From Deltaproteobacteria bacterium (GTDB lineage Bacteria > Bdellovibrionota > FAC87 > UBA2466): 47,686 nucleotides of DNA. Where the stretch lies: positions 1 to 47,686 of the forward strand of contig OMIX01000008.1 in NCBI GenBank assembly GCA_900299195.1, read 5' to 3'. The notes beneath the pieces were generated by a model, which worked only from the letters and a program-made list of their open reading frames with translations, was not told where the DNA came from and ran no database searches. Position numbers and translations under genes: made by a program. This document shows positions 31,384-36,766 of the stretch, piece after piece. The stretch's first letter is position 1. Each line of letters opens with the position of its first letter.

Positions 31384-33456
31384 ATGAAAGTGATCTTTAT
31401 CGGTTTAGTCTTTTTTTGCACCATGACCAGTGGCGCAAAAAAAAATAGGTCTCCCAAAACCGAACAATATTGGGTTCCGCCTCGCCTACTCACCTCAGTT
31501 CCACAGACTCCTTCAGCAGTCCCGGCGGCAGAACTTTTGGCTCTTCAAAGAGTGATTCAATCGGAAAATCAGAGACTCAATAAAGACCCGTATCTTCTTC
31601 AAGCCATCTCGCACCCTTCTCCACAGGTTTCTAAAGCTGCCATTTTGGCTTTGGGTAGAATTGGAGACCCTTACGCTATTGAAGCTCTTTCTCGAATACT
31701 CAACGGTAAAAGTTTAGAAAAAAAAGAGTGGGCTGCGTTTAGCTTAGGCCTTATCGGCGACGAACTTGCCATTAAATTGTTGAGTCAGCACTTAACCATG
31801 GAAAAGTCATCTAAAGTGCGTAGTTCTTATTATCGGGCTTTGGGCTACAGCAGAAATTCTTCAGTGCTACCCGTTCTTGTGAAGGCGTTATCCTCAGAAA
31901 AGGACTTATCCGCGCAAAAGAATATTGTCGAAGGATTGGGGATTTTATTAAGTGGAGATTCCGCCAGTTGGGAAATTTCGGAAGATCTTCTTAGACTGAT
32001 TACCCTCATCGCAACTTCTGACCATAATTCCTCTCTTGCAGCCGCTTTTGTACTGGCACAATTTAAGGGAAATCCCAAAAATCTACCCGTGGCAAATATT
32101 TTATCGGCGGTAAGTAAAAATTTGCCTTCCACAAACCAAGCACTACTCATTCGTTCTTTGAGTCGCTCGGACAACCCACAATTGATCCCTTTGTTTCTTT
32201 CCCATCTCGACCCCAAATTTCCCCTCTCAGTCAGGATTGAGGCGATGAAAGCCCTTAAAGGGAAACCGCTTTCTGAAACCTCGGGAGGAGCTTTAGCGAG
32301 ATCTCTTAATAGCCCGGAGAGTTCCTTAGTGATTACTACCTTAGATACTATTGTGTTCAAGCCCGAACAATTTTCTTGGCTTAAAACCCCTTTAGAATTG
32401 CTCTTAAAAACCTCAAAATCGGATTGGGTTAAAGGAAAAACCTTAAAAACTCTTTGCACGGTCGCGCCCGATATTGGTCAAAAGTACGTTCAAGAATTCT
32501 TGAAAAATAAGGGACTACTTGGATTGCCGCCCGTTCTGTCTTCGCTTGTTATTTTGCGAACCTCAGAAAACATCAAACAGTTGAATCCTTTTCTAACGGA
32601 AGGAAATCCTCTACTTCTTTCAGATGCTATTGAACAAATGGCGAATCTTGAGGAAGATGACTTTCCCGATGACTGGAAAACAGCTCTCAAAGAACTTGTG
32701 ATGAAAAAAGATCCGGGTTTGTTAGCTTTGATTTCAGAGTTAGCCAAACAAATGAATTGGAAGGACTTTGGTAAACCACTGGCTGAGGCTTACCCATCTT
32801 TGAATTCCGACGATACCACTGAAACCAAATCCACCTTACTTAATAGTTTGGCGACCTTGGGTTCGGAATCAGATTTGCCGCTTCTGCAATCGGCACTTAA
32901 TGACAATGCGAAACAAGTAGTAGTCGCTGCAGCTCAGGCCATTAAAAATATTTCAGGAAGAGATCCCAAGATCCCATTGCCAATCAATAATCGAATTACA
33001 GAATCCACTCCCTTGTGGAATCAGCTAAAATCTGTAATCTCCCAAAGAATTTTTATCAAAACAACCCGTGGAGATATCGAACTTAAACTCTTTGATGACA
33101 CTCCTTTAACGGGTTATCGGTTTGTAGAGTTTATTAAAAAGAAATTTTATGATGGAAAAACTTTCCATCGAGTGGTTCCGAACTTTGTTTCCCAGGGGGG
33201 CGACCCCAGAGGAGATGGCTTCGGTGGCCCGGGATTTCTAATACGCGATGAAGTCAGCCCTAGAAATCACGAAAGAGGGACTGTGGGCATTGCGACCGCA
33301 GGGAAAGATACTGGCGGCTGTCAGTTTTTCTTTAACCTCAGTTCAAATTACCACCTAAACGGAAGATATACCGCTTTCGCAGAGGTGGTTTCTGGAATGG
33401 ATGTTGTAGAAAAACTTGAGGTTGGAGATAAAATTATCTCCGCAACACTTAAGTAA
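31384..33456 (+). CDS. Secreted HEAT-repeat protein fused to a cyclophilin-type peptidyl-prolyl isomerase
   Basis: A 690-residue protein with a signal-like N-terminus (MKVIFIGLVFFCTMTSGA). Residues about 60-540 are alpha-helical HEAT-like repeats, clearest at VSKAAILALGRIGDPYAIEALSRIL, EKKEWAAFSLGLIGDELAIKLL and VVAAAQAIKNISG. Residues 555-690 are a cyclophilin: IKTTRGDIELKLFDD, F594-H-R596 with the catalytic arginine, the VSQGGDPRGDGFGGPG loop (Q604), GTVGIATAGKDTGGCQFFFNL and TAFAEVVSGMDVVEKL. It would catalyse prolyl isomerisation in the periplasm, with the HEAT scaffold holding a client. It is transcribed alone, divergent from the secreted protein gene. Confidence 0.88.
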   Translation: MKVIFIGLVFFCTMTSGAKKNRSPKTEQYWVPPRLLTSVPQTPSAVPAAELLALQRVIQSENQRLNKDPYLLQAISHPSPQVSKAAILALGRIGDPYAIEALSRILNGKSLEKKEWAAFSLGLIGDELAIKLLSQHLTMEKSSKVRSSYYRALGYSRNSSVLPVLVKALSSEKDLSAQKNIVEGLGILLSGDSASWEISEDLLRLITLIATSDHNSSLAAAFVLAQFKGNPKNLPVANILSAVSKNLPSTNQALLIRSLSRSDNPQLIPLFLSHLDPKFPLSVRIEAMKALKGKPLSETSGGALARSLNSPESSLVITTLDTIVFKPEQFSWLKTPLELLLKTSKSDWVKGKTLKTLCTVAPDIGQKYVQEFLKNKGLLGLPPVLSSLVILRTSENIKQLNPFLTEGNPLLLSDAIEQMANLEEDDFPDDWKTALKELVMKKDPGLLALISELAKQMNWKDFGKPLAEAYPSLNSDDTTETKSTLLNSLATLGSESDLPLLQSALNDNAKQVVVAAAQAIKNISGRDPKIPLPINNRITESTPLWNQLKSVISQRIFIKTTRGDIELKLFDDTPLTGYRFVEFIKKKFYDGKTFHRVVPNFVSQGGDPRGDGFGGPGFLIRDEVSPRNHERGTVGIATAGKDTGGCQFFFNLSSNYHLNGRYTAFAEVVSGMDVVEKLEVGDKIISATLK

Positions 33457-33803: not shown

Positions 33804-34943
33804 TTAAATAAAATCGCCTTTTTTAATTTTCTCTAAAATAATTTTTTCTGGCATCACTGGGTCGCGGGGATCTACGGTGAAATAGGATTGTTGCTCGCAA
33901 CGTCGCTTGTTTTTTAAAAGCCATTCGAGAATTTTAGACAATCCCTTGTTCTTTTTATCTTTAAAGAAAGGATCGTTTTTTAATGCATCTGAGGCCTTCT
34001 TTAAAGCCCTAGCCTCTTGAAGATCATTCTCTTTCACAGGGTAATCGGCAAGATCATACTTTTTGATATCTTCAGGAAGAACCCCCAAAAAGCGAACATC
34101 GGGAGCGGAAAAATCGGAATTACGAATTAAACTAGCTGCCGATCCCGCCTTTAGCGTTCTAAAAATATTTTGCAAGGTATAGGCGTCAAGATCTCCGAAG
34201 AAATAGATGGGAACTTTCAGTTGATCTTGAATCAACTTACACCAGCCTCTCACGGCATTACTCGGAACCCCTTGGGCACCTAGGAGAATTGCGTTGTTTC
34301 TTTTGCAAAACCCGTTGGTCACAAAGGTGTTTGCGGTACCTTCCGATTCTACTACTAAACAAAAATCGATCTTTTTCTTGGCTTTGAGTGAAAGACTCTG
34401 GGGTCGGTTTTTCGGCTGAAAAGGTGAAGTTCCCAAAGTGCTTAAATCAACTACAGCTTTGGTTCCATCGGGAAGCTGTTCAGTCACCACTAATTGATTG
34501 GAATAGGTTTGACCTCCCCGATCGTTAGCGTAGCAATTCAAATCTTCGCGATAACACTCCATCATTTCACAAATGAAATCGATAATCGCATCACTCTCAG
34601 ACTGGTCGGAAAAGTCCAAAGGCCGCAACTCAGGGTTGTGTTTTACTTCACCTTTAGAAATATAATAGAGCTCACGCTTGGTGTTCACAGCTCCAGTTTC
34701 TAAATTTCTTAAAAGAATCTCTAAGATAAAAATGGCTCTCGACATCTTCTGAACAGAAGCCACATTCAGTTCAGATTTTACCATTTTATCCCCTGGAGTC
34801 AGGTACCCTACTTTGGGGTTATAACGAGAATTGTCCAAAGAGCACTTGATGGCTTCCAGCACGGGCCGACGAGCATTCTCGAGATCGGTTAACATTTTGT
34901 TACATAAATCCTTCGAAAGCTTTGGAATCGTGTCTTCTCTCAT
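33804..34943 (-). CDS. top6A: DNA topoisomerase VI subunit A (Spo11-like)
   Basis: The 379-residue protein carries the type IIB topoisomerase A plan. The winged-helix (CAP) domain has the strand-cleaving motif NTKRELYY (residues 87-94; Y93/Y94), and the Toprim domain has VVESEG (E199, E201) and the metal-binding D251-L-D253 in YFFGDLDAYTLQNIF. It cuts both DNA strands, staying bound 5' through tyrosine, while subunit B supplies ATP-driven gating. The ATG overlaps the top6B stop by four bases, so the two are co-translated. Topoisomerase VI is mainly archaeal and plant; bacterial chromosomal copies are sporadic. Key residues look intact. Confidence 0.93.
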   Translation of the reverse strand: MREDTIPKLSKDLCNKMLTDLENARRPVLEAIKCSLDNSRYNPKVGYLTPGDKMVKSELNVASVQKMSRAIFILEILLRNLETGAVNTKRELYYISKGEVKHNPELRPLDFSDQSESDAIIDFICEMMECYREDLNCYANDRGGQTYSNQLVVTEQLPDGTKAVVDLSTLGTSPFQPKNRPQSLSLKAKKKIDFCLVVESEGTANTFVTNGFCKRNNAILLGAQGVPSNAVRGWCKLIQDQLKVPIYFFGDLDAYTLQNIFRTLKAGSAASLIRNSDFSAPDVRFLGVLPEDIKKYDLADYPVKENDLQEARALKKASDALKNDPFFKDKKNKGLSKILEWLLKNKRRCEQQSYFTVDPRDPVMPEKIILEKIKKGDFI

Positions 34944-36766
34944 GCTTCTTTCTCTTTCATTTTTTCTTTGGGCTTAGCTGTAGCTTTCTTTTTGGTTTTT
35001 GAAGTTGCTTTAGCCGATTTAGTTTTTTCAGGTGCTGCCTCAGCTTCTTCAGAAGCTTCTGACTCTTCCGGATGAGGCGCTTTCAGCTCCTCTTCCTCTT
35101 CAGCTTTAACTTCTTCTTTCTCAACAATTTGGATTTTCCCTTTGGCATGCGCCTCTTTATGATGTTTTAAAGCTTCGTCTAGCTGTTTCTTCGCCGCATT
35201 CACATCACGCCCAAGCAACTTAACTAGCCCTTCGGTCGCAGCTTTTTTTCGTTTTTCCGGAGCTTTTACGATTCGACACAAACAATCCACTAAGATGGGA
35301 CAAAATTGTTCGATGTGCCTTAGTTTTTCTTCAAGATCGGCTTCTCGATGTTCTTTTTTAATATGCCTAGAGAGTCGCTGACCCGCTTGAATCAGCGCTC
35401 TTCTAATTTCTTCTACTAACTCATCACTCGCATCCACTGTTTCTTTAGATGCATTTTTAAATTTAATAAACGGAGATACAAGACTGACTGCTATCACATA
35501 GGGCCCTAGGGGCAAACTGCTTTTGGGCTGAGGCAATCCGTAGGATCTCCAATTGACTGTTTCAATCGCCCTCACCATGGCACAAGCCGCTTTATCAAAC
35601 TGCAAGGGAACACGATTAGCAAACCGCAACACCTGAACAGGAGGACTGTCATCTCCCTCCACTTTTTGAGCTGTTTTGAGTCGAGCCACAGCAATCTCAA
35701 TGGCCACCGGCTTAAAATCGCAAATAGTGGGTTTTCGAGTGACGACTGAAAAAAAGTCGACTTCACCCAATCGACGAACACTTTTAGAAAAGGTCTCTTC
35801 ACCAATCGTCATTACCGAGCGAGTACTGGGAGACATGAGTTCCGTTTTGTGAATAGCCCCAAAAATATCTTTAAAGTGAGCATCGCTAATTTTATCAACC
35901 GCCTGTTCTAAGAATTTTTTGTCTAGCCCGTTTTTGACAAATTCTTGAAGAGTGTTTTCGGTGATTCTCGAAAATCCTTTTTTAAGAAAACTGGAAAGAG
36001 TCGATCTTCCAAAAAGATGTGAATGCGCGATAAACTCTCCAAGCTTCATCGTATGAGGATGAGGCTCAACGGCGTTGGGGATATCCGGACATTTGTCTGA
36101 AACCCGATCGACTTTGACCACCGGTTGATCCAAAAGCTTATATCTCAAATTCAAGTGGGGATTCACTAAGGCGGTTCCCGTTAAATAGGTGATGAGTCCG
36201 CCTTCTCCCTGAAGTTGAATTCGACCGTCTAAAACAAATTCGACACTGACCCCATGCGGGCGATCCCAGTTAATCGACTTCTTGTCTTTGATGTTCCCTT
36301 TGTTATTTTTAACATCGACATCTACTAGACAAGAGACCGCTTGGCGCATGCTTTTAGTCTTAGTGATGATTCGCGCACCTTTAGCACTGGTCAGCTGTGC
36401 CCATGTGGTAGCCGCAGAAATACCAATCCCTTGTTGTCCTCGAGAGCAACGTCCTCGACCAAATTTCGACGAGGCTAAATACTCTCCAAAAACTTTGGGA
36501 ACGTCGTCGATATGCAATCCCGGCCCATTGTCTTCAATCTTAATCCGGATCAAATCGGTATTTTTGATAGTGCCTGCGCCGACCTTCTCAATTTCAATAT
36601 AGAGCTCCGGTAAAATGCCCTCGTCCTCGCAAGCATCCAAGGAGTTATCAACTGCTTCTTTGAGCGTCGTTAAAACAGCTTTGGTGGGCGAAGAAAAGCC
36701 AACCTGCTGAAGATTTTTAGAGAAATACTCGGCCGTACTACTGGATGTAATTTTTTGTTTTGCCAC
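34940..36766 (-). CDS. top6B: DNA topoisomerase VI subunit B
   Basis: A 608-residue GHKL ATPase. N-box E37-x3-N41 (TTLKEAVDNSLDACED), G1 box D79-N-G-P-G83, lid and G2 box SRGQQGIGIS (108-117), a central H2TH-like helical region (about 250-300) and the transducer with RFANRVPLQFDKAACAM, whose lysine should contact ATP gamma phosphate. After about residue 545 comes a low-complexity tail rich in E, then K, A and T, which archaeal subunits generally lack. It dimerises on ATP and drives strand passage through the A subunit. Start is GTG with no strong ribosome site; it lies 56 bases after gltA. Confidence 0.93.
   Translation of the reverse strand: MAKQKITSSSTAEYFSKNLQQVGFSSPTKAVLTTLKEAVDNSLDACEDEGILPELYIEIEKVGAGTIKNTDLIRIKIEDNGPGLHIDDVPKVFGEYLASSKFGRGRCSRGQQGIGISAATTWAQLTSAKGARIITKTKSMRQAVSCLVDVDVKNNKGNIKDKKSINWDRPHGVSVEFVLDGRIQLQGEGGLITYLTGTALVNPHLNLRYKLLDQPVVKVDRVSDKCPDIPNAVEPHPHTMKLGEFIAHSHLFGRSTLSSFLKKGFSRITENTLQEFVKNGLDKKFLEQAVDKISDAHFKDIFGAIHKTELMSPSTRSVMTIGEETFSKSVRRLGEVDFFSVVTRKPTICDFKPVAIEIAVARLKTAQKVEGDDSPPVQVLRFANRVPLQFDKAACAMVRAIETVNWRSYGLPQPKSSLPLGPYVIAVSLVSPFIKFKNASKETVDASDELVEEIRRALIQAGQRLSRHIKKEHREADLEEKLRHIEQFCPILVDCLCRIVKAPEKRKKAATEGLVKLLGRDVNAAKKQLDEALKHHKEAHAKGKIQIVEKEEVKAEEEEELKAPHPEESEASEEAEAAPEKTKSAKATSKTKKKATAKPKEKMKEKEA

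Follow-up and report, generated by a model that had tools for sequence, protein, structure and literature searches.

Identification of the topoisomerase VI gene pair

The window analyzed here, a stretch of 47,686 nucleotides from the genome of an uncultured relative of the predatory Bdellovibrio, carries two adjacent genes for topoisomerase VI (topo VI), a DNA-untangling enzyme of archaeal type, on its minus strand, in the order subunit B then subunit A, with the two reading frames sharing a four-base overlap (ATGA). Subunit B (34940-36766, minus strand; 608 aa, GTG start) comprises GHKL ATPase, H2TH and transducer domains, and subunit A (33804-34943, minus strand; 379 aa, ATG start) a winged-helix (5Y-CAP) domain with the tyrosine Y94 followed by a Toprim domain. 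Matches above the curated Pfam cut-offs were obtained to Topo-VIb_trans (2.9e-42) and HATPase_c for subunit B and to TP6A_N (3.8e-14) and TOP6A-Spo11_Toprim (PF21180; 2.6e-37) for subunit A. In NCBIfam, subunit B exceeded the cut-offs of two topo VI-B equivalog models, and subunit A scored 413.5 against the cut-off of 424 of the topo VI-A model, falling about 10 bits short. Relatives in the PDB were 1d3y, 2q2e and 2zbk for subunit A, the nearest structure being M. jannaschii topo VI-A, and 2q2e_B, 2zbk_B and 1mu5 for subunit B, the nearest being M. mazei topo VI-B.

Structure models of both subunits, built from 28 relatives, were of moderate confidence (pLDDT 73.6 for A and 74.4 for B), and that of subunit A, owing to its poor domain orientation (rmsd 15-20), was used for fold assignment alone. 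In the fold search, the matches of the A model below an E-value of 0.001 were solely topo VI-A and Spo11, and the 16 best matches of the B model were all topo VI-B. The B model aligned near full-length, over 478-524 columns, on structures of topo VI-B, and its helices 242-307 are predicted to occupy the H2TH position between the GHKL and transducer domains. Judged from its sequence, the gene pair encodes a complete A2B2 type IIB topoisomerase. The ORF coordinates confirmed the initial annotation of two intact subunits joined by an ATGA overlap, and the motifs that it listed (Y93/Y94, D251/D253, E37/N41 and D79-N-G-P-G83) were all present as stated; its identification of topo VI was borne out by the Pfam and NCBIfam matches, the fold search and the conserved residues, so that a non-topoisomerase GHKL pair, the alternative that it had raised, was ruled out.

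Residues 548-608 of subunit B (34943-35125, minus strand) form a charged tail of low complexity and predicted disorder (pLDDT <50), the last 67 residues of the subunit consisting of 25% Lys/Arg and 27% Asp/Glu. M. mazei topo VI-B instead has an Ig-like C-terminal domain, which is not present in the window's subunit. The lysine-rich tail varies among relatives from 0 to about 110 aa, with up to 44% Lys/Arg, and is missing from the B subunits of two families with a distant topo VI (f28 and f19, described below) and from the archaeal structures as far as these could be aligned.

Conservation of catalytic residues

Residues R90, Y94, E199, D251 and D253 of subunit A were identical in 94/94 non-redundant related A subunits, in the distant topo VI type and in 5/5 archaeal sequences, E199 being the third member of the Toprim triad with D251 and D253. 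For subunit B, residues E37, N41, D79, G81, G83, R109, G110 and K441 were identical in all readable related sequences, and K441 aligned with K427 of S. shibatae, the switch lysine of the transducer. In the alignment with M. jannaschii topo VI-A, whose catalytic tyrosine is Y103 in the published numbering, this residue corresponded to Y94 and not to Y93. Residues R90 and E350 of subunit A, the latter invariant in the alignment, corresponded to a clasp of arginine and glutamate known from M. mazei topo VI (PMC13040014). Domain order, catalytic residues and fold are shared with the archaeal enzymes (M. mazei, M. jannaschii and S. shibatae), although subunit A is only about 20-30% identical to archaeal topo VI and has at position 229 an Asn, found in all 94 relatives, in replacement of Arg.

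Nothing in the sequences suggests decay of either subunit. In comparisons between the same genomes beyond the window's own order, aa identity was 71-84% for subunit A versus 53-62% for GyrA; dN was low and dS saturated, hence no dN/dS ratio is given. The higher conservation of subunit A than of GyrA, together with low dN at saturated dS, points to strong purifying selection. Across the phylum, subunit A (L002-L081) was markedly more conserved than either GyrA or subunit B from the same genomes.

Gyrase without topoisomerase IV

The draft genome containing the window (2.83 Mb, 128 contigs, 97% complete) encodes one PF00521 and one PF00204 protein, neighbors on contig C98. The PF00521 protein, a GyrA of 838 aa, carries the GyrA-box QRRGGKG, and a GyrA-box was present in all 42 GyrAs read from the phylum, this one included. 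Since the sole type IIA pair bears a GyrA-box, the enzyme is considered to be gyrase and topo IV to be missing; no second PF00521/PF00204 pair corresponding to ParC/ParE was found in this 97%-complete, 128-contig draft, an absence that is not absolute. In most bacteria, topo IV unlinks sister chromosomes after replication. The search for gyrAB and parCE proposed in the initial annotation, run on the draft genome, thus returned a single GyrB-GyrA pair and no ParC/ParE, which narrows its suggestion of a role next to or instead of gyrase/topo IV to one next to gyrase and instead of topo IV.

The same combination of gyrase and topo VI without topo IV has been described in B. bacteriovorus by Allen & Maxwell (2024), who proposed topo VI as the missing decatenase and called for more study of what it does in bacteria (PMC11302465); both the combination in that species and the replacement idea are therefore already published. 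B. bacteriovorus HD100 (Bd2864 and its neighbor) resembles the window in having topo VI of the same type, encoded as a B-A pair, with one gyrase and no topo IV, but belongs to another class-level group and has other flanking genes. With 75% identity between the A subunits and 64% between the B subunits, the window's pair is, by sequence comparison, an ortholog of Bdellovibrio topo VI. What is new here is the phylum-wide pattern, the presence in two families of another, distant type of topo VI, and the supported transfer between classes.

Distribution across Bdellovibrionota

The census covered 369 genomes of the window's phylum, Bdellovibrionota, sorted by family code (f3, f4 and so on). Topo VI-A was found in 211 of them in a clade-wise pattern, that is in 211/227 genomes of the topo VI-bearing families, of which 203/227 had exactly one PF00521 match. 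When genomes were scanned at one per species, 80 relatives with 72-97% identity in subunit A were recovered, whose titles named only Bdellovibrionota-type, Deltaproteobacteria, Proteobacteria or unclassified MAGs. Subunits A and B occurred together in 115/116 loci and were neighbors wherever the contig allowed, and a single closely related type, here called the main type, runs through the topo VI-bearing classes as a linked B-A pair. The view of the initial annotation that topo VI had been sporadically acquired was not sustained, the gene being core in most classes, and the clade-wise census largely shows the outcome that it had named as contrary to this view, namely genes that are common in the lineage and vertically inherited. 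On these distributions, topo VI appears as an ordinary core housekeeping enzyme of the lineage and not as an oddity of one genome.

Those topo VI misses that were checked look like assembly gaps. Among well-assembled genomes, true loss was rejected for G202 and G265, in which a contig breaks within or beside the subunit B gene, and for G162, in which the whole 16 kb block syntenic with a genome of the same genus is unmatched, so that it also looks like a gap. At two loci (L037 and L176) subunit B is split into two overlapping frames, reflecting an assembly error or a broken gene. Extra PF00521 matches were detected in nine genomes of topo VI families, five being split or frameshifted GyrA. Genomes G149 and G150, from topo VI families, have extra PF00521 matches, and in f29 a second GyrB/GyrA-like pair was found on the 8.6 kb contig C83 of G367 and a fragment in G368. 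Contig C83 (L121), possibly a contaminant, encodes a GyrB-like protein of 674 aa and a GyrA-like protein of 932 aa with a 315-aa DHH-type phosphoesterase-like gene between them.

Topo VI-A was absent from all 129 genomes of f3, of which 107 had two or more PF00521 matches. Where f3 genomes were checked, the additional match was a ParC-type frame of 471-489 aa (476-480 aa in L118, L119 and L124), adjoined by a ParE-type gene in 4/4 genomes where both were searched; these short ParC-type proteins apparently have no C-terminal pinwheel domain. Topo VI-A was likewise not found in f15-f18 (13 genomes of 1.2-2.0 Mb). Of these families, f17 encodes a ParC-type protein about 770 aa long, beside which a ParE-type gene was seen in two genomes, and in f15, f16 and f18 gyrase was found and neither topo VI nor topo IV. 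Examples of gyrase-only genomes (G288, G293 and G295 from f15 and f16) are small, at 1.7-2.0 Mb. Topo IV and topo VI alternate cleanly by clade; a tree-aware test on the GyrA tree yielded 1-2 independent contrasts and had no power, and as the alternation rests on few independent events, no statistical support is claimed for replacement. With topo VI apparently core in some families and topo IV or neither enzyme in others, Bdellovibrionota make the replacement idea directly testable, also in B. bacteriovorus HD100, which is genetically tractable.

Phylogeny and transfer

Trees were built from main-type sequences, those of f28 and f19 and five archaeal sequences, all the bacterial ones being from Bdellovibrionota. 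In the subunit A tree, the 30 main-type sequences formed a single clade (100/100) with f28 and f19 outside it, and the main type was separated likewise, with full support, in the subunit B tree. The GyrA tree agreed with most groups inside the main topo VI type. Families f20 and f21 (L169/G303 and L170/G304) were joined in the GyrA tree, and their topo VI sequences were nested within f4-f13, that of f20 adjoining f5, the family that holds HD100. Placing f20 and f21 together for topo VI was rejected (p-AU 0.0007, for a grouping chosen after the tree comparison and so not blind), which supports lateral transfer of the topo VI pair between classes. For f14, a position close to the window's class had no support in the joint data (p-AU 0.117).

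The topo VI of f28 and f19 (L086-L089, L112 and L113) is, like that of the window, an intact A and B gene pair in genomes with gyrase, and no second type IIA enzyme was found in these families. Its identity to the window's enzyme is, however, no more than about 32% for A and 34% for B, and it falls outside the clade of the latter, which suggests that this distant topo VI may have been acquired independently. In the trees with the five archaeal sequences, the stem branches were very long, at 8-10 changes per site. Given its core status in the group, topo VI in a Bdellovibrionota MAG should not be read as a mark of recent acquisition from archaea. The pair is probably old and mostly vertically inherited, and belongs to the core genes of most Bdellovibrionota classes, the window's own among them. 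A more tentative scenario, plausible without being the favored expectation, is one of repeated decatenase exchange in the phylum, in which an archaeal-type topo VI would have supplanted topo IV across most classes, other families would have acquired the distant second type and the pair would later have passed between classes, with one large and one small-genome family keeping topo IV and others managing with gyrase alone. If this were so, the phylum would represent a natural experiment on the decatenation needs of chromosomes.

Proposed role and alternatives

There is good reason to think that topo VI in this genome serves as a decatenase beside gyrase, replacing topo IV. Following established topo VI biochemistry, ATP would close the B-subunit gate on the transported duplex, and the two Y94 residues would cut the gate duplex, through which the transported duplex would pass. 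Gyrase, the sole type IIA enzyme found, would supply negative supercoils and remove positive ones, and topo VI would unlink sister chromosomes after replication, the usual job of topo IV; bacterial topo IV (ParC/ParE) is a type IIA enzyme with a cleavage subunit of different architecture for which the same job is thereby proposed. Decatenation by the window's enzyme would fit, by analogy, the biochemistry of M. mazei topo VI, which prefers decatenation (PMC8837201). The M. mazei enzyme also complements a parE-ts mutant of E. coli, according to unpublished results referred to by Allen & Maxwell (PMC11302465).

A recent or mobile pair without a core role, related to plasmid topo VIII, phage or defense systems, would be in keeping with the transfer of the pair between classes on at least one occasion (f20/f21), but is scarcely credible given its distribution across the phylum and its genomic context. 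In the window's order, the pair has conserved flanks, with gltA and proC on the upstream side and UvrD on the downstream side, and the contig holds gatCAB as well as the uvrD, gltA and proC-type genes; the GC content of the pair (41-44%) is like that of its neighbors (42.5% for the window). Phage records and viral contigs gave no match to the pair, bacterial plasmids gave no full match and one weak partial match at 25% identity, and no defense family was matched with PADLOC. Plasmid topo VIII itself was rejected on the separate full-length A and B subunits, the housekeeping contig and the lack of a full plasmid match. The synteny check suggested in the initial annotation gave a divided answer, the flanks being conserved within the window's order and differing between families, where other housekeeping genes flank the pair with no recurrent partner hinting at function. 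Close to the pair in the window (31384-33456) lies a gene for a predicted protein in which HEAT repeats are joined to a cyclophilin-type prolyl isomerase.

The existence of gyrase-only relatives in the same phylum (f15, f16 and f18) speaks against the decatenase reading, as gyrase might suffice. Gyrase alone could then decatenate and topo VI have a specialized role, such as the relaxation of particular crossings where the nucleoid is compact and bears histones or the making of Spo11-like controlled breaks, and the Bdellovibrio nucleoid is indeed unusually compact and histone-bearing (PMC11318664; PMC11390915). We regard this as unlikely. The gyrase-only relatives have small genomes of 1.2-2.0 Mb and could be exceptional, and the near-universal presence of topo VI among classes with larger genomes speaks for a core role. 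The window's B subunit also retains its GHKL, H2TH and transducer domains together with the switch lysine, while Spo11 partners have a degenerated B (PMC11302465). A Spo11 or Mini-A nuclease was discarded on the intact B subunit overlapping A by four bases and the linkage of the pair in nearly every locus. A link to predation is also unlikely because f3, presumed to be the Bacteriovorax group and thus predators too, carries topo IV and lacks topo VI. That topo VI acts mainly as an additional relaxase, removing the positive supercoils that form in front of replication and transcription, would accord with the presence of a single type IIA enzyme and with the general ability of type II enzymes to relax such supercoils, yet it is very improbable, as gyrase already removes positive supercoils and M. 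mazei topo VI is slow and distributive and prefers crossings of about 90 degrees, as in catenanes (PMC8837201).

A 2023 review lists 'Top II (Bd2865)', 'Top IV (Bd0005)' and topo VI (Bd2864) in HD100 (PMC11318664). In genome G133, taken as HD100 (L116 and L090), one GyrB/GyrA pair with a GyrA-box lies in the first 8 kb, and topo VI-B adjoins topo VI-A. This single gyrase pair near the chromosome start casts doubt on the labels of the review, and 'Top IV (Bd0005)' is most likely GyrA and 'Top II (Bd2865)' topo VI-B.
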